A DNA stretch of 21,508 nucleotides, taken from NCBI RefSeq assembly GCF_000003605.2, contig NW_003158240.1, positions 13,360-34,867 on the forward strand, read 5' to 3'. The translations under genes and the position numbers were made by a program. This DNA comes from Saccoglossus kowalevskii (lineage: Eukaryota; Hemichordata; Enteropneusta; Harrimaniidae). Each line of letters starts with the position of its first letter. Position 1 is the stretch's first letter. Positions 1 to 20,996 of the stretch are shown piece after piece. The notes beneath the pieces are model-generated. The model was given only the letters and a program-made list of their open reading frames with translations. It did not search any database and was not told the DNA's origin.

Positions 1-85
1 GGCGTCGACTTCGATAATGTTTTGTTATTTGTCGTGGGAGCTGTCGTGCTTATGATGATTGGGTACTGCTCAGCTTTTGAAATTG
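1..85 (+). CDS. Gene A, first visible exon: signal peptide
   Basis: Frame 1 is open from base 1 and encodes a hydrophobic run (VLLFVVGAVVLMMIG) followed by YCSAFEI, a plausible signal-peptidase site after CSA. The exon ends at a G|GTAAGT donor, leaving one base, which pairs with the two bases that open the CUB exon. No upstream start codon is in the window, so this is a 5' partial. The internal MM would give too short a leader. Confidence 0.7.
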
Positions 86-3000
86 GTAAGTATAACCACC
101 ATGGCTTCTGTAGGATGTCTATATTCGTATGTTACAGCTGTTACACATGTATTTGAATTGAATTCGTAAATAATAAGGGACGCAACCGACGTATTACTCT
201 TATTAATAGGACGGTGTTCGGCGGGAGTCGGGAATAAACAAATATTCGCAGTTAAAGGGCGGTACTCGTCACGCCACGTTCTCTTAGCGACGTATACAAC
301 GAGTGTAAAATACATTGTTAATTTATATGAATTTCTAACACGCGCTGCGCGACGACCACAGCCCTTTAAGGGTATCTGACATAGTATTAATATCGGTCAC
401 ATTAACATAAGCATTGGGGAGGGAGACTCACTGGAAGTACGAATTCAAATATTTCATTGGGAAAGAGTTCCTTACAGACCCCCCCCCCCTCACCCCTAAC
501 CTAACCCGAAAACTACAGCTTGCTCCCCCAATGTAATTGTATATGCCACTCCAGATAACTATGCATGTCCTGCAGAGGAGTATATACAATTAAATTTGGA
601 AAGGGGCACTGGAGGGGCAAGGTTAGGGTTAGAGTCATAAGGAATCTTACCTTTCATGGGGACACTAACCCATCGAAAATTCCCTTTGAAAGGGGGAAAC
701 CAACAATGTAAGAAAATAGGAAGTCTATAAAGTTTTGTTTGAATTATGAAGAAACTCTTTACTAAAGACTGTCACTCTGTAATCATGTTTTAACAAAATA
801 GTCTTTATGTACTTGTCAATCATCTCTTACCACTAAATACTTTGCTTAGATATTACAAAAGTAGCTGAATTTGATCAGTTTAAGTTAAAGATAAAGCGAA
901 AGTTACTTTAATATATTTGTTGTTTGATTTTCAGTATATATGACTGATCGCTGTGGTGAAACTGTGATTGGTGGAGCTGGTGGATTCATAGAACCAGATA
1001 CGAGTCTTTCTTATCCAAACGACATGGACTGTACCATTGTGGTAACAGTTGAGGCAGAACACAAGATACTACTTCAGATCACTAGATTTTCACTGGAACC
1101 ACCTGTTGATGGTGCATGTGTGGATAAACTGAATATTTACGATGGCGGTAGCGTGTCGAGCCCCAGCCTGAGTGGGGATTTGTGTGATTCCCAGACTGTT
1201 GCCGATATGGTGTCATCAGGTAACATGCTCACTTTCCGTATGCAGACTGATGTCATAGGAAATGGCCACGGATTTGCAATTGTATACACAGCTTATCTTG
1301 ATAAAACTGATGGTAGGTGTGATTTCCATGGCAATTGGATCATATTTAATACATATTATGCAAAATAGAGTTTATTCAATATTTTATAGGTAACATCCTT
1401 GTACATTGACCTCTACCAATTTCTGGTAAGATCTTATGGGAATCCTAATACCACATTTGTAATAAACACACTATGAATATTTAATATACTCAAAAACAAT
1501 AGCTACACACTAAGAAAATACAATATATATAAATAAACACTAAAATTCCACTGGTTTGCAAGGGCAGAGGCACTATACCTAGGCAAAAGGAAGGTCACAT
1601 GTGCTGATATAAATACAGGAGACCAAGTGTCTTTTAGTAGCACATGCATTTACGTAAATGACACAGGTCTTGCCTTTTGAAAATGGCTGGAGAGCGACAG
1701 ATAGCTTTCCCCAAAGCACTAAGGAGAGATATGGTAGTAGTTTCTACACAGACTGCATGTATTAAATAAAAAACAAAGTGATGACTGAGCTGCATCTATG
1801 TTTGAATATTTTAATAATCCAGCATGCAATAAATACAATTTTAGTGTATGTGTGCTTCTGTTAGAAATATGCTTTTTATAGAGCAAATATTTTGCAAGTT
1901 TGTGTTGCCGTCCTTGCATGAAAGAACAGCCCAATACAGCATGGTCTAATTAGTTAAGTGGTTTAAAATAATCAGACTAAAGCAGTCCCATGACCTGGTT
2001 GGCACAGAAGTAATTTCATAACACAGAAGACAAAAAGAATAAAGTCTCTTTAAATGTATCTCTTCATCTGACACTTTCTGTGTGTTATTTCTTTGAAACA
2101 TAGATTTATCGAAAATGTCACCACAATGTATGAAACTCATAGATCACTGCATCAAACACTGCTAGGTGTTGAATCTCCTGGTGTACTGTCTTGTGTATTT
2201 TAATTAATTCTAATCTCATGCATTCATTTTGTTGTATGTTTATTTGTTGGTGGTTTTTATGACCACATGTATGTTTGAATGAATATGTACATAAACACCA
2301 CATGCATATGTGTTGCTATGGATAGTATGGGACTAATATCAAACACAATAAAGTCTATTGTTAACATTTTCTTTATCTTTACAGGAGTGTCCTGTCCTAC
2401 AGATTACTTTGCATGTAATAATGGTATCTGTATACTGTCTGAGTTAGAGTGTAACAACTTTGATCAGTGTGGGGATGGAACAGATGAATCTAACTGTAAA
2501 GGTAATATTATAGTAGTTCACTTTTAGTCTCTACCTTATAGAATAATTGTTTTATGTGAGAATTTCATAGTATTTGCTAGCTACTATGAGTAACTCTGTA
2601 AAATACTCGCGTTTAGGTATTGTTTATGTTCTTTTTCTTATATTTGATGTAAGAATTTACCGTTTCAAAGAAAATAAATATTTATTATTATTATTATTAC
2701 AAGACACTTCGCGATGAACTTCTTAGTGGCAGTGATATTTACCAAAATATTTGTTAACAACTCTGTAGACCTTTTATAACTTGCTGGCATAGCATTCAAT
2801 TCCCACCACCAATTACATATAGTGTCAGCATTTTGGCTCATTTCTAACAAATCCAAAATAATTCTGGATAATTTTCCTTACTTTGCATTGTACTATGTTT
2901 GCATTTGAAGTTTTGATGAATTTAATGGGTGTATATATTTTAGTATGTACATGTACACACATGTAAATACCCATCAAATATTAGTAAAAGAATTTATTAT

Positions 3001-4443
3001 ATATTTATTAAAAAATATTGCTTTCCCTTGCCATAATTATGCATTCTACTATCCATGTAACTTAATGCAGAAAAAATGATAAATAAGATTAAGATTAAAT
3101 TTCTCAACTGGTTGATTTTGCAGTATTGGTGGGATTTTTTTGCAAATATTGTATTCACTGACAATTATTTAGTATTTTAATTAAATACATTTACTGTATG
3201 GTGACTCTTTCTTTGGGGCATAATTGTGACTCTCATGTGGAGTACCATGTTGAATATGTTCCAGCCCGTGTAAATACTTGTCAAAGTCATTTATTGTTGT
3301 TGACTTACCAAAAAACAACATTGCTATGTTTCTAGGCACACAACGAACTTGAAACAAATGGAACCGTCCAATCCAAGCAACCTGCATCTCTGAAAATCGA
3401 GTCTTATCGCCCTTGCGTTTCTGACACGCCCGGGGGACCAAAATTTGTGAATCACTTCGTGACCAAAATTTGATGATAATAGGCAAGGGGGTGAGGGACT
3501 GCTTTTCAAAAACATAATTTTATATATAGGGTATATAATTATTACTTAAAATATTATTACAAAATTCTTACAAAACATGATCATATATATTGTAATATTG
3601 CTGCAAAATTGCTGTCATTGTATTTTAACACTTTTTCTCAATTCTCATCTTAGCAACAGCTTACATGTAGTTTTAGCTTAGGGGAAAACATATATTCATT
3701 TTTGTGAAAGGAAATGGGATTGAAAAAATCATTATCTCTTTGCATATAGAGCCGGTGGAGATAGTGTTACCTTACCTGTACTGTAAAATACTTTATTTTA
3801 GCTGGAAATAATTTTCGCTGTAAAGACTTAAGTTAAGTTTAAGTTTAGGAAAAAGATGTATTCGCTGGATTTTATATTCACTGAATCACGGCAAAAAAAA
3901 TTCCAAGTGAAAATGAAGTATTTTACAGTACACAATATTTTGAAGCGTGGTGCATGTGCTGAATTACACATGCTAACTTGTATGGGAAAAAACTACTTTA
4001 GCGTTACAATTCTCAAATTGCCTCTTAATTTATCAAAGAGGTTTGAAAGAAAAGTTTTGAAACATTATTATTTTTTGTTGTAGCATTCTTCCATAAAAGT
4101 TAATATGAATATATTACTAGAAAATAAAGCTAAAGAATACATCATAAAAGCAGTGGGATTACATAATATTTGGTATAATTTCATTGCAGAAGATGATGAT
4201 CTCATAGACGGAGGATTGACCGTGGGTCAAGTGATTGCTATCATTTTGGGAATCCTACTGCTGGCTGTGCTTGTTGGTGCCATAGTGTACTTTGTAAAAC
4301 GTCATCAAAAAGCCAAGCGACTTACAGAGGAAATTATGATGACAGAGAAAGTTATTTATCCTCGTGATAATGTCTACAGTGATAAAGACTTTTGGGGTGA
4401 TCGACCGGTATCATCTTTTAACAGGAGATCAGGAACTTCTTAG
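1..4443 (+). CDS. Gene A: single-CUB, single-LDLa type I membrane protein (5' partial)
   Basis: Four exons (1-85, 935-1312, 2385-2501, 4190-4443) join in frame to 277 codons plus a TAG stop. All three introns are GT..AG and phase 1. Domain order is signal-peptide core, CUB (about residues 35-150), LDLa (158-192), acidic stalk (EDDDLIDGG), TM helix (about 205-229) and a 48-residue cytoplasmic tail. The initiator ATG lies left of the window or in an unseen exon, because the first exon is open to base 1. By family knowledge such proteins are cell-surface receptors or co-receptors, with CUB and LDLa binding protein ligands. Nothing here shows the ligand. The tail is basic near the membrane (KRHQKAKR), has tyrosines in YPRDNVY, and lacks the YWCCWRPGY cysteine-rich region of genes B and C. 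It is convergent with gene B. The exon structure is well supported; the function is unknown. Confidence 0.85.
86..934 (+). other. Gene A intron 1
   Basis: This is an 849-base phase-1 intron. It contains a TTAA-flanked MITE-like element (252-369), a C run at 479-489, telomere-like CCCTAACC and GGTTAGGG stretches near 493-507 and 620-632, and no coding signal I trust. Confidence 0.7.
252..369 (-). mobile_element. MITE-like element copy 1 (TTAA-flanked, about 110 bp)
   Basis: TTAA flanks both sides (252-255 and 366-369). The inner ends begin AGGGC, and 15 of the outer 19 positions agree between the left end and the reverse complement of the right end. The interior, read on the minus strand, contains ACGTCGCTAAG and ATGTATTTTACAC stretches shared with copies at 9859, 15401 and 19047. 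No ORF is present, so it is non-autonomous. TTAA duplication is typical of piggyBac-type transposases; assignment to that group is inference. Confidence 0.65.
935..1312 (+). CDS. Gene A, exon encoding the CUB domain
   Basis: The acceptor follows a T-rich tract ending in TTTTCAG and the donor is G|GTAGGT, so both ends are phase 1. The exon encodes a complete CUB of about 115 residues: CGETV start, four cysteines at the expected places (CGE, DCTI, ACVD, LCDS), the CUB signature KLNIYDGG, and a GFAIVYTAY terminal strand. The aspartate usual three residues after the third cysteine in calcium-binding CUBs is not clearly conserved (CVDKL). Without splicing the frame would stop at 1368. Confidence 0.9.
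1313..2384 (+). other. Gene A intron 2
   Basis: This is a 1072-base AT-rich phase-1 intron. Only short chance ORFs are visible on the minus strand, and no repeat stands out by eye. Confidence 0.6.
2385..2501 (+). CDS. Gene A, exon encoding the LDLa module
   Basis: This 117-base symmetric exon lies between TTTACAG and G|GTAATA. It encodes a six-cysteine LDL-receptor class A repeat ending CGDGTDESNC. The distal acidic pair D,E of the calcium site is present, while the two earlier acidic positions read N (after the fourth Cys) and Q (before the fifth Cys). The module stands alone on its exon, as LDLa modules usually do. Confidence 0.9.
2680..2860 (-). mobile_element. Possible SINE/LINE 3' end with (TAA)n tail
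   Basis: Read on the minus strand, a roughly 150-base body ends in a run of TAA repeats (2680-2699), the pattern left by some non-LTR retrotransposons and SINEs. No second copy of the body was found in the window and no target duplication was recognised, so this is tentative. Confidence 0.3.
3779..3930. mobile_element. Inverted-repeat element with TA flanks (mariner-like MITE)
   Basis: GTACTGTAAAATACTT at 3778-3793 is repeated as its exact reverse complement at 3916-3931, giving 16-bp perfect arms. If TA is the duplicated target, the element starts CTGTAAAATACTT and is about 148 bp. The interior has GCTGGAAATAATTTTCGCTG-like and TTCGCTGGATTTTATATTCA-like units. TA duplication is typical of Tc1/mariner elements; the class assignment is inference. 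Confidence 0.55.
4190..4443 (+). CDS. Gene A, last exon: stalk, TM helix and cytoplasmic tail
   Basis: The acceptor TTTCATTGCAG completes a split Glu codon. The exon gives an acidic stalk, a strongly hydrophobic stretch of about 25 residues containing GILLLAVLVGAIVYF, a basic stop-transfer segment, and a short tail ending RRSGTS before TAG. Small residues spaced along the helix (G, A, G) could favour helix packing, but this is only inference. The C-terminus is not a classical PDZ ligand. Confidence 0.85.
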
Positions 4444-8603: not shown

Positions 8604-9112
8604 TTATCTACACTCTCTGGCGTGTTGGCCGTCGGCGTTATAAAATTCATGATAATCCCCGACACCACCATTAAGTTCGCCATTTCTCAATGCGTGACCA
8701 TCTTCGTCAACAAGAAAAACATTATTGCTTATACGACTACCCTTTTTCAACTGGCTACGCTTTCTATCACCGCGTCGACCTCTTGCTTGGCTACCAGACA
8801 TTCCGCCATTGCCCGTTTCCATGACCCTATATGCGTCGTCATTACTGCGACAACACGCACAGAACGTGCATCCTTCCCTCTCCCTTCCCTTTCTAGGTTT
8901 GCCCCATTTCCCACCCTTTCCTATCGAACAATCAATACAGCAATGTTTACAGCAGTCCCGACAGGAATCCCGCAATGCATTGCGACAACAAGCCATTCTC
9001 CATGGGAAATAACCAGGCCTCCAACAACACCAATACGAAGCGTAGAGCAAAATAGGGACGGCCAACGGTATCCACCACCACCAAACGTCATCGTAGGTCC
9101 ATACACGTACAT
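8604..9112 (-). CDS. Gene B exon 5: TM helix and cysteine-rich cytoplasmic tail
   Basis: The acceptor TTATTTTTCAG completes a split Tyr codon. The stalk YDDV leads to [18 protein letters not shown], then CCWRPGY at the inner face. Cysteine pairs follow (ACC, DCC, HCC, FCACC), then a basic region ([10 protein letters not shown]) and KKGSRISN before an acidic end. The same blocks occur in gene C in the same order. Confidence 0.87.
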
Positions 9113-11849
9113 CTGAAAAATAAGTCATTCATTTACTAATTATATCAATGTGATTGGATATATTTCAATACAATACTATTGTTTAGTTTAATTGTGCCCG
9201 GAATTGCGTTGTGAAACACGGCACGTTTTTATCTACATTGTGATGTTCGAGGCGAGGCCATTTTCATAGCGACCAGATTAGTCGTGCAGTCATGTATATA
9301 TATATATATATATATACGTCGCTCAATTGTATTGATGGCCTAGCTTCGAATTAAACCATTTCGACCAGCAAGGCGTGAAGTTGCCAAGGCCCGCCCAAGG
9401 TATTGCGCCAACGCCTCCTGTTGCACTATATAGCTATAATCCCCGGGTCCTTTTATAAATCAGTCAATACTCCCGAGCAAATAATCGAAGTCATTCACTA
9501 CCAAGTCAGCTATAATAGTAGGTACAGACAACATCCAAACAACTTACTGAACCAACCAACAACACTCTGTACGTGCAGTAGTGATGTTATATATTTAACT
9601 ATCAACTAATATTCACACTATGTAATGATGGAAAAACTAGAAAAATTAAGCAGAGCATCATGACTATTTTTATTTAGATGCTTAAAAGCTCCGAGATCAC
9701 GAGAGACTTAGCACACATCAGTTGATCGACCAACCGTTGAATGAGAAAATATCTATGTTCGATCAAACTCTAACAGAATAACATTATTTTGACCATGCGC
9801 TCATAGTTATCATATTAAGCAGTAGCAAACACAAACGTGTACCACGTATGACACAGGTTTAAAGGGGTGATCTTCGAATTTCAAACAATGTACACGCGTT
9901 GTATACGTCGCTATGGGTCCCATTTCGAACACGACGCGGCGTGTCGACCACCGCCCTTTAAAATATTGAAAAAATATACTTACATGGACAATACGAGGGC
10001 GCTAGCTCTACTAGTTGGTCGCTGTTATCACCGCAGTTATTAGCACTGTCACATCTCAACGTACGGGGAATACATCGTCCGTTGGTGCATTTTAGTTCTG
10101 TTACCTCGTCTGTACAGGAACCTGAGGACAAAATATATTTACTTTAATTTTGTAGAGACGTTGTTCGGCGTGGTGTCTTATACAACCGCAATATAACAAT
10201 ATATAATATTTGACGCCGTCTAACATATATAGCGTAAATGATTAAAATATACATGCTGGTAAAATCAGTTCAAATTCGATGATTTGTATCACATAGACCT
10301 GACGACCCTGATATAACATTCCGAGATCTGTGGGCAAAATATTTATTGAAAATTAATCGTTTTTTTGACAATTCGTACGCCCCTCTAATTTTACATATTC
10401 GTCAATGTAGTTAATACATGAGCGTCCATGGAGTAGCACGAGAATTTCTGTGTATGAACCTTAAATCGGTTTAAACCGGATTTTATTTCATACTTATAAC
10501 AGTATGACTTCAATTCTTATGGAAATAGCAATACATTTGATTATAATATCTTAAAATGACAGAAATTACTCCTACATTCTTCAGTGGCGATGTAGAATTG
10601 CAATAATACAGCAGATGCCCGGGATAAGAAGGGGGCATTCGAATTGGCGTCAACAATGAATATTTTCAGTAAATATATTCGTCTTCAGATCTCGGAAAAG
10701 TCATATCAGGATCGTCAGATCCTTGTGATTTTCACATATAATTCATGCTACATAGTGATAATAAATAGAACCACGTGCGCGAAGTAACATCATATACAAG
10801 AGTTTGCTGTTACTCACCCTGTATCTTTATAGCGAGAACATATCTGCAATTCATGAAATAACATGAGAGAATATTGACAATAAAGGCGTATAAACATTTT
10901 ACATAATTCGAACCTTACCAAAATCAAAAGATGTCATGAGTATGGTAAAGTTGACTGATGACGTGTCTCGCAGTTTCATTCTAACGGTTGCAAAGTTTGT
11001 GGTAGTTTGAAAAGTTGCCGGTTGTATTGTACCGCACGTATGGAGGAGTAGACTGTCATTTGTTGCGAATCTCCCATCGTATATTTGAAGGAAAGAAGCA
11101 TCGCAGTTTGTAGAGTTACCGAGACCAGACTCAATCTCATTTCCCGGATCTGCAGAGAGAAATATTGCAATAATTGTAATATAACCACTATTATCAAATG
11201 TTGGGAAATTATGAGAAGTAACATCTAACATGTATAATTGTGCTTTATAGCAACAACATATTTATCCTGGTTTAAACATAAATACACATTTTTAAATAGA
11301 AATCAACGCATGTATTGCGGGACAAAAATTGTATTTATGTATTGCATAATTAAGCAATGCATCTTACCAGTTACAGCATAATAGTTTTCTCTTAGGAAAC
11401 TTATAAGCAACATCTGGTCGTTTTTCATCGCTTGCATCGTAACAGAGCAATCGAGAAAGCCGCTTAGCGCTGTGCCATCAACAACGTGTGACTCCAGGCG
11501 ATAGGCATCTTTCTTTACCGTCAGTCGGTTACAGTTTTCATTCATTATTACTGAAACATACAACGGAGGGGGGGGGGGAAACAATTAACATACATATTAG
11601 AACATCTGGGGTTTTTATGATACATTGCAGTTCTAATTCAAATAATTTTAATTAAATTTATTTATCTGAAACACTAGTGAAAAACGAAATGAAATGAAAA
11701 CTGTCGACGGTTGGGTACAATCCCCTCAATAATGCGACACAGTTACATATCCTGTACTTACACTGAGTAGTGATAGCGTCAGTCGAGTGAACACTGATAA
11801 CTAACAGAACATAACATCCCAAAAATAAAGTTGAAATCGGAGTCTTCAT
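8604..11849 (-). CDS. Gene B: single-CUB, single-LDLa type I membrane protein with Cys-rich tail
   Basis: Five exons (11762-11849, 11368-11550, 10919-11149, 9984-10121, 8604-9112) join in frame to 382 codons plus TAA. All four introns are GT..AG and phase 1. Domains: signal peptide (about 1-25), CUB (36-165, split over two exons), LDLa (170-212), TM helix (about 224-244) preceded by four tryptophans, and a cytoplasmic tail of 138 residues. The tail opens with YWCCWRPGY and has about 14 cysteines in 75 residues, including GCTFCACC, then a basic Gly/Ser-rich stretch. N-glycosylation sequons (NDS, NST, NFT) lie in the CUB. Gene C is its tandem paralogue upstream; gene A is convergent. A surface receptor role is inferred from architecture. 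The Cys-rich tail could be palmitoylated or bind metal; neither is shown. Confidence 0.88.
9295..9316. repeat. (TA)n microsatellite
   Basis: A 22-base TA run inside intron 4 of gene B. Confidence 0.9.
9859..9961 (+). mobile_element. MITE-like element copy 2 (TTAA-flanked, 95 bp)
   Basis: TTAA lies at 9859-9862 and 9958-9961, with inner ends AGGGGTGATC and, on the opposite strand, AGGGCGGTGGTC. The interior TACACGCGTTGTATACGTCG is nearly the reverse complement of copy 1, and TCGAACACGACG recurs in copies 3 and 4. It has no coding capacity and is the best-preserved copy. Confidence 0.7.
9984..10121 (-). CDS. Gene B exon 4: LDLa module
   Basis: This 138-base symmetric exon lies between TGTCCTCAG and T|GTAAGT. 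The six cysteines fit the LDLa pattern, with CGDNSDQ where the consensus has an SDE-type end. Calcium-ligand positions read D, N, D, Q, so two of the four usual acidic residues are amides. The last inter-cysteine loop is longer than usual (LVELAPSY). Confidence 0.85.
10122..10918 (-). other. Gene B intron 3
   Basis: This is a 797-base phase-1 intron, more than half of it occupied by a large inverted repeat (10281-10740). Confidence 0.7.
10281..10740. mobile_element. Large inverted-repeat element, about 460 bp
   Basis: The left arm (about 10281-10371) and right arm (about 10648-10740) are reverse complements over 70 or more positions with scattered mismatches. The core CAGATCTCGGAA followed by ATATCAGG and TCGTCAG is almost identical in both. 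The spacer is about 275 bases without an ORF. It fits a long-TIR MITE or foldback element. Exact ends and target duplication are not resolved by eye. Confidence 0.65.
10919..11149 (-). CDS. Gene B exon 3: second half of CUB
   Basis: The acceptor is TCTCTGCAG and the donor G|GTAAGG. The exon encodes the third and fourth CUB cysteines (NCDASF, HTCGT) and the signature FLQIYDG. The closing strand ([13 protein letters not shown]) matches the end of the other two CUBs. It is 77 codons, phase 1. Confidence 0.85.
11368..11550 (-). CDS. Gene B exon 2: first half of CUB
   Basis: The acceptor lies behind a pyrimidine tract that includes a run of 11 C on the minus strand, ending TGTTTCAG. The exon encodes CUB strands with the first two cysteines (NENCNR and LDCSV) and ends at G|GTAAGA. 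It is 61 codons, phase 1 at both ends. Confidence 0.85.
11762..11849 (-). CDS. Gene B exon 1: start codon and signal peptide
   Basis: The ATG has A at -3. It is followed by a short polar N-region and a hydrophobic core ([13 protein letters not shown]), with likely cleavage near STDA. The exon ends at T|GTAAGT in phase 1, with residues 1-29 complete and codon 30 split. Confidence 0.85.
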
Positions 11850-14277
11850 ACTGACATCGAAACATTAGATCGATATTACTGGACGTGGGCTAGGTATAAC
11901 AGCAGTGCGGAAAATGGCGTGTTCATAATAACTTGGAACTTATGCCAAGTGAAGCAACTACAACAATGCTCAATGCCGACGGAGTAGCAGTAAAGAAGGA
12001 ACAAAGGTGTCAGAGCTCCGTTATGCACGTTGTATTTGCTGTATTCTACGGTACACAAAGTAACCTCAGTGATGTGCACTGAGGCAGAAAAAACGCTCGC
12101 CTGACAATACCCCATTATCACCGTGACCAATTTACAGTGAAATGAACTATCGAATCGTTGCGCAGAGCTAAAACTCCGTGAGTCAAAGGGTCGTGTCTTT
12201 TGTTAGTCTCTGTGCTTAGACCGAATTAAGGCGACTTCGGGTGTTGTTCATTGCCAATGACAATAAAAGATATATATCCCGAACATTGACCGACACATAT
12301 TAAAATAATGATAAGGTCACCGTGGAAACCAGCTCCATAATAACCCTACACAGGCTAATTGGCTACATGTAATCAATATTATACGGGCGGTTGTTACTTT
12401 TTGTCGAACGACTGAATTCGCCTTGTTCCAAAACTATACACGTGTAATGGGGCAACATTTATACTGAATATATATATATATGTTTCGGAAAACGTCTAGT
12501 GAGTTTAATCTGTTCTCATTTCTATTGACAGTGCTGAATATATTGATATTTGCCCCGCTAATCCCGTAATGTATAGACTCCTATTATAGGGGGTGGGGTT
12601 GTATATACAAATCCCATTTCTGGACAACGGTAATAATTTGAGAACGGCAAGTGCTAAACAAATCATAAAGAATTGCGTTTATTGTTGGATGATGCTCCGT
12701 GGGTCAATCCACACAGTCAGGCCTTCACCCACAGGTGATCTGGCCAATAAAAAGACGAAGCACACTATTCTGTTTTTCTATTCAGGCTTTCTGGAAAGTG
12801 CTCACATATTTTCAACGCTTACGAGTCGTGTTAAATACGAGAGACAGTTATTTTAAATAGGGCAACAAACATGAATGACACCACGCAACTGTCCCATAAT
12901 TCAGTGCGCTCATTAATACCACTGAGCGGAGTTCAGTAAAGCTGGCGACAGATGCATAATGAGGTAATATACATTTTTTACTCAATTTACTAAAAATGTA
13001 ACTATAGTAACATATACATATCCACCGACTCAAAAAATTGCTTGTGATATTCCATTTTATTACGATTAAGGGATTGAATAGAGAACAAAACATTTATTTT
13101 CACTGGAAATTTATTTCACTATTCAAGTTGATTAAGTGTTTCCACATGTCGAAGAAACTCGGTTTAAACACTTTGACAGGCTTTCACTTATGAGTGACGT
13201 GTGTCATTCAAAGACACGGATTCGTTGGTAAATATTAACTGTGGGGCGAATGAACAACCGAAAACAGTTCGGCGCAAAAAATAAACAAAACAAACAAAAA
13301 ACAGAACAGAACAAATAACAAGATACATATTTCATAAAAGGTAAATATTTAGATATTACTTTCGTTATTTGTACATTTAATAATACCAATACAATATTAG
13401 ATACAATACTCCTAAACTCAACTCTCTGAATGACCTACGAACAAAGGACCGTGTGGCCGCACGTTAGAAAAAAAAAGAAAGAGCGAACACAAGAATTTCA
13501 AAATGAAAAAGCAAATATATATTTATTTTGTTGCCCATCACGTGTCTTGCGTGATATAATAATAAATAAAATCAAACCACTTAAATATAAGAGAAGAGAA
13601 ACACACACCCCCATTGTACTGGTTCTTGTACGCAACATACATTTGGGCAAGGCAACAATAACAGTTGTGTTTCTATAGGCATAATATAAATAAATTAAAT
13701 TGAAGTAAATATCTTCCGTCTTCCTCAGCTCCCATCTCACACTGAGTATTCATAACGGTGTGGTGAATGCTATAATTACTTCGTTAGTCTGAACAACGCA
13801 TTTTTGTTCTTCAAACTTTGAACTGTACGAATTTTCGTTAAATTCCTAAATAAATAATGCATGTATTGGTAAATATACGACATGCCCACCAGTGTACCCT
13901 CTACGCCAATATGGCGCGCCCCTGACGCACACACATTTGCTCTGTCGCAACTACTTGTGTGTCATTGACGCTACAGAAAATCATACATCGATATAGCGAA
14001 TTTGAAAAATACCTTATGAATTTTGTAAAATGAAGTTGCTATTTTGTAGATGAAATCAGGGGCCACAAAATTGTGCTGTGTACCACATATACATTCACAT
14101 ACAATTTTATTTCCTAAAGATTGACCTCCCAATCTGTCAAGAATCTGATTTTTTGGAGATTTCCAGAAAATTACTCTTGTTAGAGGGCACATTGGTCTCC
14201 ATGTGTATTCACAGTATTAGCTAATCAACTGTAATGAACACATCGAATACTTCTTAATGCTGTTTCGTAGTACTTTC
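11850..14277. other. Intergenic region between genes B and C
   Basis: It holds the presumed promoter of gene B, though no convincing TATA/initiator pair was found near its start, and the 3' UTR of gene C. A TA run lies near 12469-12480. The ORFs here are short, AT-biased and unsupported. Confidence 0.55.
14106..14111 (-). terminator. Candidate poly(A) signal of gene C
   Basis: AATAAA on the minus strand lies about 170 bases after the stop. It is followed within 30 bases by a GT-rich element (TGTATGTGAATGTATATGTG). This is the most convincing of the three poly(A) calls. Confidence 0.55.
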
Positions 14278-14717
14278 TCATGCATGAACAGTACGGACTT
14301 CGTTCTTAGAATCAACAGTGCTACCCTTTCCACTGTCCGGAGATCTCGTCCCTTGCAATGGTAATGGTGTTGAACTATTGGAATAACCATATTGTGAGTT
14401 ATTGTGTCTATAATTTGATATATAAACGCCTTTCCGACTAGACAGCTTGCGGTAACCGCCTTCACCGTCCCCTGCGTCAGCTATGTAACGCGGTCCGCAA
14501 CACGCACAACCTCGACATCCAGCGAACAGACCTCTCAAGCAGTTTCGGCTTTTTCGTGTGCACAGTTCACAAGGTCCGCCCAGACTTTTGTGTCTACATA
14601 CGCAGCACACCCACTGCACATACCCAGGCCTCCAGCAACACCAGTACATAAGAAAGGGTAAAGTGGCAGCAACTATAGCTAGGGCAATCCACAATGGAAT
14701 CAAATCAACGTAGTCAT
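14278..14717 (-). CDS. Gene C exon 4: TM helix and cysteine-rich cytoplasmic tail
   Basis: The acceptor TTTGTATTCAG completes a split Tyr. The stalk DDYVD precedes the helix LIPLWIALAIVAATLPFLMYW, followed by CCWRPGY, clustered cysteines, GCRGCACC, GDGEGGYRKL, RKGVYISN and a Ser-rich end (VRTVHA). The stalk, membrane boundary and cysteine blocks align with gene B exon 5. Confidence 0.87.
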
Positions 14718-17606
14718 CTGAATACAAATTAAGAAACACAAGTATTTTAACCGTGATATACAGCAAGAGCAATGAACGAATACGACAATTGTATTTGTTT
14801 ACTCCGAGATAATTTCAAAACTGAATTAATTAATCCGCTGCATCAGCACACCCATCCATTTCTGTTATTTATCGCAAATTAAATCACGCCGTTTTACGCA
14901 ATGGTAAAAACCGGAGACGATGACTGAGTAGCATGATGTATATTTCCCATGCATACTTACAAGGGCAACTTAATGGATCGTTCTTCGACTGGTCGCTATA
15001 ATCTTGGTTACCACAGCTTGATATGTTGGGACTAAGACATGTCATTTGTGTGGAAATACACAGTTTACTGGTTTCACAGTGAAAATCATCAGTTGCACTG
15101 GGACAAATCCCAAGAACGGTCTCTGTAAGAAGTAAAGAAAAGAAATATGAGAGATACAAGCTTACGTGGCACAAATGATCTATACATTAAGAGACACAGG
15201 ACGAGTCGCGTACATGTTGATCATCAGTGTTTTTCATGTCTTACAACATTACGATCAGGCGGTAACTATTTTTGACCGATTGCGGAATTTGTCTCCATGG
15301 AAACTCAGAACAATTTGAATATATACGCGCTACAACTGATAGAGGGCAATCATAGTTTACAGCGCCGCAGTCCCAACACATCGTGGCAGTCGTCATGCTA
15401 CGTGGCTTTCGTCACATAGCGCCACAGTTCGAATTTCATGAAAATAATTAAAAAGGAACGTATTTTACTCGCGGTGCGTGCGTCACATGAGACCCGCATC
15501 GAACACGATGTGGTCCGACGAATAGTATGGTGCTTGAATCCATTTTCGTACTCACCGCCTCTATAAGCCGTTAACACAGCACGAAAGTCTAGCACAGTAC
15601 TATTGCCGTCAATTTCCACTTCGATAGTAACGCTATCACCTGTCGTCATCGTCAGACTCGGTCGATCAGAGCCACATAGTGGTCCTTTGAGTAGAGCGTC
15701 TGACGAAGACATTCCATCGTAAATATTCATAAATGCTGTGGTACAGCTACCCGTGTCCATATAACGCACACCTACATCAAACCAATGAAACTCCACCTGG
15801 ACGTTTGTGTAAGGCACTGAAGCTCTGAAGGTGTAACTGCATATTAGTGATCGGTTGAAGAAATCGTATTCACCAGCTTTGCCATGTGAATCCAATAGCA
15901 TGCCGTAATCGGTTTTCGTACGGCCGCATTTGTTTACGAATAAATCTGTATGAGAAATATAAGAAAAAGTGATTACAACTTTAGTCCGCAATCTGAAAGT
16001 GACGACATAGTAAATACTGTCACCGCGAATGTAGACTCTTTTGTTGGGGTCATAGTTGAGAATATTTCAAAGCAAGCCCATACTCTCTTAAACAGTACAC
16101 AGCGTTGCAAACTGTCGTTGGCATTTTGTAAGGGACATCATACCCGAGCCTTTTGGTCTCCAGTGGGTAAATGTTTGCGAACACGGGCTTTCTGACATAA
16201 CTACTAAGCTTCAACGACCCGGATGATTTATCAGGGGGGAATTCTTTCTCCACGGGGTTCTCCACACGTGTCAGGGGGGAATCTCGTCTCGTCTCTCTAT
16301 CGCGTCCCCTTGAGGTATGGGATTGGGAAAATCAGTTAAGCTTTACAGTCAAGTAAGACTCACACAACGAAATACGTTTCAGCTCTCGTCTTAGTCGGTC
16401 AATCGAGCACTCTATAAGACACAGCGCCCTGGGGAAAAATCCCAAAGACTATCGCAAGGCTGACTCAAGACTCTCTTAGACTGCGTCAACACTCGCCCAA
16501 AGCTCTCCAGGACTGCGTCTGTTCTGCTGTACTCCCCAAGACCAACTAAACAACTTTATTCATTTTCAAAACTCTAACCAATTACAAAGCAGTAAAAAGA
16601 CTCTAGGGCGTAACCTTCAATCATAAAGCCAATCACACTAAGTACTGAATACGTCATATCTTTTGATTAATGTTCACTACATTAATAACTACGGATACCA
16701 ACTGTCAGAAAGAGTAGTCTGAATAGCGACGGTTATTTCGTAATTAGTTCCAAATCACTGAGTCGAGTTCCGTCCAAAACTTCAAATAGGCCTAAACGAT
16801 GACAGACATAACACAGCAATTCGCTAATAATCAGCTAATTAAGTCGGACAACAGATACACAAAAACAAATTCATGACAGATTACTTGTTTTATGTAAAGT
16901 CCCATGTATCAGTCATGACAACTAGCTTCGTGATACGAATCGCATATTGCCTACTACTCCACGTGCTGTTAACTGTCAATTTTCATTTTCTATGTTCTGC
17001 GTTCGTAGACATGTGTATGGCGGTTAGAAAAGCATGAATATGAATTCAGCTTAACTTACCACATGTATACATGGAACTTGTATTGTCTTTTTTTAAAAAA
17101 ACGTGTTATTGTAAATACTTTTTTAATTTGTACAATGGGCTCTGTACTGAAATAAATAATAATAATAATGGAAGAGTACGAGCACTTTTAAAGTAAAGTA
17201 GAACTAGGCTGGGTAAAAGAGGGGCGTATTTTCAGAGTTTTATTATATGCTCTTTTGAAAGAATCTCTTTTTGTGATTAACGCCATTCTTTTTGACTCCG
17301 GCATTCACACTTTCAAGTATTTTTGTAAACGAATTAGGTCACCAAATGCTGAAAATAGATGAACCATCGTTACAGAGCACAGGAGCCTAAACTGTGGTCC
17401 CTCATTCCACTCAGCGTCTGCACCACAGATAAAACTACATATGATCACGGTTTCTAGTAACCGTGATATGATTGAGAAAATAAGTACGATTAGCCTCAGT
17501 AGATATAAAATGACGTCATACCTTGCTCAATACTATTACTCGTTGCAGCACTGGCCAAGTCAACAATAAAGAGGTACACGATCCATCGGAACGCTAATTC
17601 GTACAT
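14278..17606 (-). CDS. Gene C: single-CUB, single-LDLa type I membrane protein with Cys-rich tail
   Basis: Four exons (17522-17606, 15556-15945, 14961-15122, 14278-14717) join in frame to 358 codons plus TGA. All introns are GT..AG and phase 1. Domains: signal peptide (about 1-20), CUB (35-157), LDLa (165-211), TM helix (about 219-242) and a cytoplasmic tail of 116 residues. The tail opens with the same YWCCWRPGY as gene B, carries about 12 cysteines including GCRGCACC, then RKGVYISN, and ends in a Ser/Thr-rich stretch. Sequons NRS, NST and NIS are in the ectodomain. Shared order and motifs make it a tandem paralogue of B. The CUB is on one exon here, unlike B. Receptor function is inferred; no ligand or signalling partner can be named. 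Confidence 0.87.
14961..15122 (-). CDS. Gene C exon 3: divergent LDLa module
   Basis: This 162-base symmetric exon lies between TTCTTACAG and T|GTAAGT. It has six cysteines in LDLa order, but the fourth-to-fifth cysteine loop is lengthened (seven residues, LSPNISS) and the end reads CGNQDYSDQ. Only one of the four consensus calcium-ligand acids is clearly kept. An N-glycosylation sequon (NIS) lies inside this loop. Confidence 0.82.
15123..15555 (-). other. Gene C intron 2
   Basis: This is a 433-base phase-1 intron, about a quarter of it taken by MITE-like copy 4. Confidence 0.7.
15401..15522 (+). mobile_element. MITE-like element copy 4 (decayed)
   Basis: It shares, in order, GTGGCTTTCGTC, TTCGAATTTCAT, TATTTTACTCGCG and ATCGAACACGATGTGG with copies 1-3. 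TTAA flanks are no longer visible, so the limits are approximate. Confidence 0.5.
15556..15945 (-). CDS. Gene C exon 2: complete CUB domain
   Basis: The acceptor is TCTCATACAG and the donor G|GTGAGT; the exon is 130 codons. Four cysteines (NKCGR, LICSY, GSCTT, PLCGS), the signature FMNIYDG and the closing strand FRAVLTAYRG define a CUB. The usual calcium-ligand aspartate after the third cysteine is replaced (CTTA). Confidence 0.88.
16050..16560. other. GC-richer, internally repetitive stretch of unknown origin
   Basis: The base composition differs from the flanks. TCAGGGGGGAAT occurs at 16231 and 16271. GACT-containing units recur from about 16445 to 16520, including GACTGCGTC twice, about 31 bases apart. 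A minus-strand open frame of about 70 codons ends at 16050 without start, splice or domain support. It may be the remnant of a retroelement. Confidence 0.3.
17106..17170 (+). mobile_element. Possible retroelement 3' end with (AAT)n tail
   Basis: A GTAAATAC...CTCTGTACTG sequence runs into AAATAAATAATAATAATAAT, the style of ending seen in some non-LTR elements and SINEs. It is only a short remnant and no second copy was found. Confidence 0.25.
17511..17518. promoter_or_regulatory. Perfect CRE-type palindrome at the gene C exon 1 donor
   Basis: TGACGTCA, the consensus bound by CREB/ATF-type bZIP factors, overlaps the start of intron 1 of gene C. Binding is not shown. Confidence 0.35.
17522..17606 (-). 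CDS. Gene C exon 1: start codon and signal peptide
   Basis: The ATG, with G at -3, begins MYELAFRW. A hydrophobic core (IVYLFIVDLASA) follows, with likely cleavage after ASA. The donor G|GTATGA gives phase 1, matching the two bases opening the CUB exon. It is too short to stand out as an ORF. It is joined to the CUB across a 1.6-kb intron by phase and by analogy with gene B. Confidence 0.75.
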
Positions 17607-20021: not shown

Positions 20022-20801
20022 ACGCATTACTAAAGTAACTAATTACAAATGAGCAAATCTATGACAAAAAGATGATGGATTCGTCTCAATGTGTGTCCTT
20101 GCGTGCAAATCAAAAATGTGCTCTCCGCATGTCCGATAAACTATTTTGAAGCGACGTGCACACGAACGCGAAAGAAGACGGACCCAACATATTTGGATGC
20201 TCAGAAACAGTATACAATGGCATAACAGAATGTAGAGTTTTATTAATGCATGTTGTAGACAGCGAACTAAATTTATTTTGTCTACGACTGGAGCTGTTGT
20301 ACGCGATACTACAGCTACCCGATCAGTGTAGAAGCGTGTGCGGAGTAATGACTGGTGGGATAGACGACTTTCCTGAAAGTCGAAGGTACGGTGTTTCACA
20401 TGCGCACATGTCGGTTTGTGCTGTAACCTAAATTTGCCCTCGTGATATTGTGCTTCTGAGTGTACCAATCAACGTTAAAAAAATAAAATTCCCTTCTATC
20501 GACTATAGCAAACTGACATTTTTTTCTTATTTTTGCACCCCAGTCTTGCCACTTCCGGGAAAGTCGTCTATGAAGTCATTATACTAACATGGGACAAAGC
20601 AACAATCCTCTAAAACTTCAGATTTGTTTAACTAAATAACTTTTCGTTTCTAATATTTGAACATTTTTTTTCTTCAATTCATGCGTCTTCTAGGTTGTTT
20701 CTTTGTTACGTCTAAGTTTGGTTGCCATTTGGAAATGAGAAAATTGCATATTATATTTGATCGCAAGTATAATATTCACACCCGAAGGTCGCCACACCGG
20801 G

Positions 20802-20972
20802 GCTAAGCGTTCGCGCACACTTCGTTAGCCCGTGCTAAGGGTCTGGACCGCGTCTTAAAATCGGATCAGATTTTACCCGTACTTAGCAGTCCTTAGCCCG
20901 TGCTAAGCGTTCACGCACGTTTTCTGAGCTCGGGCTAAGGAATTTGACCTCCGTCTTAGCCCGTGCTAAGGA
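20802..20972. repeat. Cluster of short palindromic TTAGCCCGTGCTAA units
   Basis: TTAGCCCGTGCTAAG occurs at 20825, 20893 and 20956. Half units GCTAAGCGTTC(G/A)CGCAC occur at 20802 and 20902, and a reversed unit (GAGCTCGGGCTAAGG) at about 20926. Each unit is a near-palindrome with 5-base outer arms TTAGC/GCTAA. The stretch is far more GC-rich than its flanks. Confidence 0.6.
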
Positions 20973-20996
20973 GCTGTGCGTGGACATTTTTACAAA

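Follow-up and report, generated by a model that had tools for sequence, protein, structure and literature searches.

A tandem pair of single-CUB/LDLa membrane proteins in Saccoglossus kowalevskii shares a YWCCWRPGY membrane edge and two short islands in a cysteine-rich tail

Two neighbouring genes of Saccoglossus kowalevskii, here called B and C, encode proteins with a cysteine-rich cytoplasmic tail, and the question raised by this locus is which parts of that tail have been kept and what they might do. The window, meaning the whole stretch of 21,508 nucleotides that was analysed, corresponds to positions 13360-34867 of a contig of 85 kb; the genome measures 572 Mb. B and C were found where a preliminary description of the DNA had placed them, as tandem paralogues on the minus strand with open frames, GT-AG borders and introns that are all in phase 1 (Table 1). 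Gene B has five exons encoding 382 residues and gene C four exons encoding 358 residues, and the order of parts is the same in both: signal peptide, CUB, LDLa, single membrane span and a tail that is basic and rich in cysteine. A further exon-like stretch of 26 bases in B (10818-10843) was dropped from the model; its inclusion creates an in-frame stop, and the flanking exons join in frame without it.

Table 1 Features of genes A, B and C, in window coordinates
Feature	Position	Strand	Evidence
Gene A: CUB, LDLa, membrane span, different short tail	1..4443 (1-85, 935-1312, 2385-2501, 4190-4443)	+	Pfam CUB 5.2e-12, LDLa 1.8e-7
Gene B exon 1: start codon, signal peptide	11762..11849	-	donor GTAAGT, phase 1; hydrophobic peak 1.76
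Gene B exon 2: divergent CUB, part 1	11368..11550	-	splice sites; alignment with C
Gene B exon 3: divergent CUB, part 2	10919..11149	-	Pfam CUB E 0.03 (below cut-off); tblastn against the CUB exon of C, E 2.4e-4
Gene B exon 4: LDLa repeat	9984..10121	-	Ldl_recept_a E 3.5e-7
Gene B exon 5: membrane span, cysteine-rich tail, stop TAA	8604..9112	-	15 Cys in 143 residues from YWCC
YWCCWRPGY, gene B residues 240-248	9009..9035	-	
GCTFCACC, gene B	8850..8873	-	
KGSRISN, gene B	8724..8744	-	
Gene C exon 1: start codon ATG, signal peptide	17522..17606	-	donor GTATGA, phase 1; N-terminal hydrophobic peak 1.57
Gene C exon 2: CUB domain	15556..15945	-	Pfam CUB E 1.3e-7; cubilin 3kq4_B E 2.2e-12
Gene C exon 3: degenerate LDLa repeat	14961..15122	-	17/44 identical with the LDLa of B; unmatched in Pfam
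Gene C exon 4: membrane span, cysteine-rich tail, stop TGA	14278..14717	-	12 Cys in 122 residues from YWCC
YWCCWRPGY, gene C residues 237-245	14620..14646	-	
GCRGCACC, gene C	14497..14520	-	
KGVYISN, gene C	14413..14433	-	

B and C share a common ancestor, and blastp aligned the two proteins over 260 columns with an E of 2e-20. Each gene model holds one CUB region, recognised by Pfam in C and, in B, by the match of the second CUB exon to the CUB exon of C, so that neither protein has the two CUB domains of the NETO family. An LDLa repeat lies between the CUB region and the membrane in both; Pfam identified that of B, and that of C was assigned by its identity with the repeat of B. A single membrane span is indicated by a hydropathy peak at the motif, clear in C (19-residue mean 2.31) and weak in B (1.21), and by a helix that AlphaFold2, run on a two-row alignment, predicted at residues 6-30 of the last exon of B, extending into YWCCWRPGY. 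The pair is a real, small tandem duplication whose architecture is known and whose tail has no name. The usual LDLa repeat has SDE where the repeats of B and C read SDQ, and that of C also lacks further acidic positions; with these substitutions, calcium binding by the two repeats may be weakened.

A third gene of the window, gene A, is convergent with B and has phase-1 introns and the same outer plan as B and C, and its 5' end lies outside the readable sequence (the start falls in N). It matched C (E 1e-9) and B (E 9e-8) by blastp, its tail has no cysteines and its membrane span lacks YWCCWRPGY. When a profile built from A, B and C was compared with the PDB, four LRP2 chains came first, followed by NETO2 with an E of 2.1e-19 for the whole chain, the best stretch being CUB plus LDLa; neuropilins were also among the matches. 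Neuropilin-2 carries CUB domains.

Two other features of the contig were recorded. Repeated and inverted TTAGCCCGTGCTAAG units, with four 21-nt copies and with arms of 31 nt and 18 nt in inverted orientation, occupy 20797-20985 of the window; the patch may be a piece of a small mobile element. At 72831-74375 of the contig (L016:2831-4375), on the plus strand, there are frames reading IIGAGISG and LLLEARDRVGGRT, which may belong to a monoamine-oxidase-like flavoprotein gene.

The preliminary description reported that the inner membrane edge is identical in the two genes, and this was borne out: all 9 of 9 residues of YWCCWRPGY are kept, with three codons silently different (3 of 27 bases). Further along the tail, GCxxCACC is followed by KGxxISN in both proteins, again in the order first described. 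The parts of the tail that are clearly held are this nine-residue membrane edge and these two short islands. The broader contrast that had been drawn, of a tail held while the ectodomain drifted, proved overstated. Identity between B and C was 21/50 (42%) from YWCC to CACC and 15/63 (24%) after CACC, against 34/125 (27%) in the CUB region and 17/44 (39%) in the LDLa repeat; the membrane span together with its outer flank gave 7/21. When sequences were shuffled 2000 times, the real alignment score was matched by no shuffle for the CUB region, the whole ectodomain or the tail from YWCC, by 8 for the LDLa repeat, by 190 for the membrane span and by 146 for the tail beyond WRPGY. A functional intracellular module, as first suggested, is plausible in so far as three codons of the 9-mer have changed silently with no residue replaced, but the tail beyond WRPGY is not clearly conserved.

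The reading that we favour, at a probability of about one half, is that B and C are duplicated type I single-CUB/LDLa receptors with trafficking or auxiliary roles, whose membrane-edge cysteines are S-acylated. This assignment of function is transferred from proteins that resemble B and C in the plan of their extracellular domains alone. The outer part would bind a partner receptor, a channel or a secreted ligand, as is thought or shown for CULD, Loaf and NETO. The two cysteines of YWCCWRPGY, and cysteines that follow, would be S-acylated (palmitoylated) at the inner leaflet; acylation, the tryptophans and the first arginine might together fix the end of the helix and steer clustering and sorting of the receptor, much as in neuropilin-2. 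The rest of the tail, being less constrained, would be a flexible linker that carries short binding motifs. The membrane-edge stretch probably serves as a lipid attachment site, and palmitoylation fits the anatomy read from the two sequences, in which paired cysteines stand at the membrane edge in both proteins. Also in favour are the GT-AG, phase-1 gene models, the CUB and LDLa matches, the NETO2 profile match and the helix that runs into the motif. Against it count the weakly hydrophobic span of B, the alignment of the two spans, no better than that of 190 of the 2000 shuffles, the lack of clear conservation in the tail beyond WRPGY taken as a whole, and the small sample of two sequences.

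The islands might instead be a relic of common origin combined with residue preferences at the membrane edge, the tail being simply an anchor or stop-transfer sequence. We regard this as doubtful, although it fares best among the alternatives. It agrees with the 146 of 2000 shuffles that aligned as well beyond WRPGY, and with the dN between B and C calculated by the NG86 method, which at 0.91 for the whole tail was not lower than the 0.78 of the ectodomain (0.61 from the span to CACC, 0.89 for the CUB region, 0.55 for the LDLa repeat). These are dN figures alone: dS was not computable for any of the five regions, so that a comparison of dN/dS between tail and ectodomain is uninformative from these two genes. 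With CUB identity at only 27% and dS beyond computation, however, neutral retention of nine successive residues appears unlikely. The preserved order of the two further islands also speaks against a relic: among 500 shuffles of the tail of C, an 8-residue window with 6 identities to that of B turned up in 13, and only 1 of these had in addition a collinear window of 7 residues with 5 identities further along. Gene A, in turn, has a like outer plan and a span without the motif.

A small module binding zinc or another metal, in which the clustered cysteines ending in CxxCxCC would form a surface for an adaptor, is unlikely in our estimate. GCxxCACC is common to both tails, and 9 of the 12 tail cysteines of C align with cysteines of B; these comprise the leading pair, three in the central part and the four that make up the end block. 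Counted from the Y of the motif, cysteines stand at 2, 3, 15, 16, 24, 27, 28, 31, 32, 35, 55, 58, 60 and 61 in B and at 2, 3, 13, 14, 16, 25, 28, 35, 43, 46, 48 and 49 in C. The three middle coincidences, between the motif and position 35, are nevertheless at chance level for such a cysteine content (P 0.23), and the position of the end block differs by 12 residues between the two proteins. The view that the tail fits no named domain was supported: neither tail exon matched any family when compared with Pfam and NCBIfam up to E 10, with HMMER filters that discard most very weak matches. A profile search of the PDB with the tail returned noise alone, in which three chains of eS26, a zinc-binding ribosomal protein, appeared at E 0.57 to 0.76, so that this likeness, which would favour zinc, is at chance level. 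The AlphaFold2 model is unfolded past the helix, 142 of the 168 residues of the last exon of B having a pLDDT below 50; built on two sequences only, it weighs weakly against a metal site. Zinc binding is possible, and less supported than S-acylation.

Equally improbable, in our view, is that B and C belong to an unnamed family defined by a lipid-modified Trp-Cys module, YWCCWRPGY...GCxxCACC...KGxxISN, acting as a sorting device beneath exchangeable outer domains. Were the motif widespread, it would be a new tail module; confined to this locus, it would point to a small local duplication. The forecast that many proteins would carry the motif was not borne out by DNA patterns in the readable part of the 572-Mb genome, where the motifs were found in B and C only, although distant variants would escape such patterns. 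The exact DNA pattern TAYTGGTGYTGYTGG, for YWCCW, occurred at 8 places, of which the 2 in B and C read YWCCWRPGY. With up to 2 mismatches, a pattern for WCCWRPGY gave 4 places, B and C being exact, and its reversed control gave 7; the other two are short frames that by eye are unlike the tails of B and C. The pattern for GCxxCACC gave 6 places including B and C, and its reversed control 1. Beyond B and C these comprise three places on one contig and one frame of 114 residues without the membrane-edge motif, none of which resembles the tails by eye.

The three places that share a contig, C3217 (G000, L024-L026), have the same 24 bases, reading GCVRCACC in a 10-residue open frame, and they are probably a repeat.

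A protein search of the animal's own genome with the last exon of C recovered C alone and missed even B; it is thus too insensitive to speak for the absence of distant paralogues, and the negative result rests on the DNA patterns. A peptide pattern matched 64 stretches on viral contigs and 461 on prokaryote contigs, among which there were zero confirmed relatives, as expected for an animal gene. The strings YWCCWRPGY, CCWRPG, WCCWRP and YWCCWR were not found in the papers that were searched.

Copying of the membrane-edge stretch between B and C by gene conversion is very improbable: without gaps, 24/27 bases are identical within the motif against 22/60 upstream and 20/60 downstream, as a converted tract would be, but such a tract would have to end exactly at the nine conserved codons and still hold three silent differences, for which selection on the protein is the simpler account, and the variant of conversion followed by silent drift is likewise unlikely.

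With the membrane edge and the two islands as its only clearly held parts, the pair offers a candidate sorting signal that is short and mutable. Its nearest parallels in domain plan are two proteins of Drosophila. CULD (CG17352) resembles B and C in having one CUB domain, one LDLa repeat and one membrane span, a likeness of domain plan alone (PMC4732287). Loaf (Lost and found, CG6024) likewise has an extracellular CUB domain and LDLa repeat, one predicted span and a cytoplasmic domain, of which residues 292-378 served as antigen (PMC8205486). Both are found in endosomal vesicles, overexpressed forms of Loaf lying in intracellular vesicles that include endosomes, and these single-CUB/LDLa membrane proteins of the fly have roles in the endocytic traffic of rhodopsin and TRPL as well as in the targeting of axons, those of photoreceptors in the case of Loaf (PMC4732287, PMC8205486). 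The main text of PMC4732287 on CULD mentions neither cysteines nor a tail, and the passages of PMC4732287 and PMC8205486 drawn on here give no mechanism for the tails of CULD or Loaf.

NETO1 and NETO2, Drosophila Neto and C. elegans SOL-2 share with B and C the combination of CUB, LDLa and membrane span but differ in having two CUB domains, and the tails of NETO1 and NETO2 end in PDZ-binding motifs; NETO and SOL-2 act as auxiliary proteins of glutamate receptors (PMC9083331). Neuropilin-2 differs from B and C in both ectodomain and tail. It is like them a membrane receptor with cysteines at the membrane edge, and there the membrane and juxtamembrane cysteines are palmitoylated, which sets clustering and trafficking of the receptor (PMC10069869).
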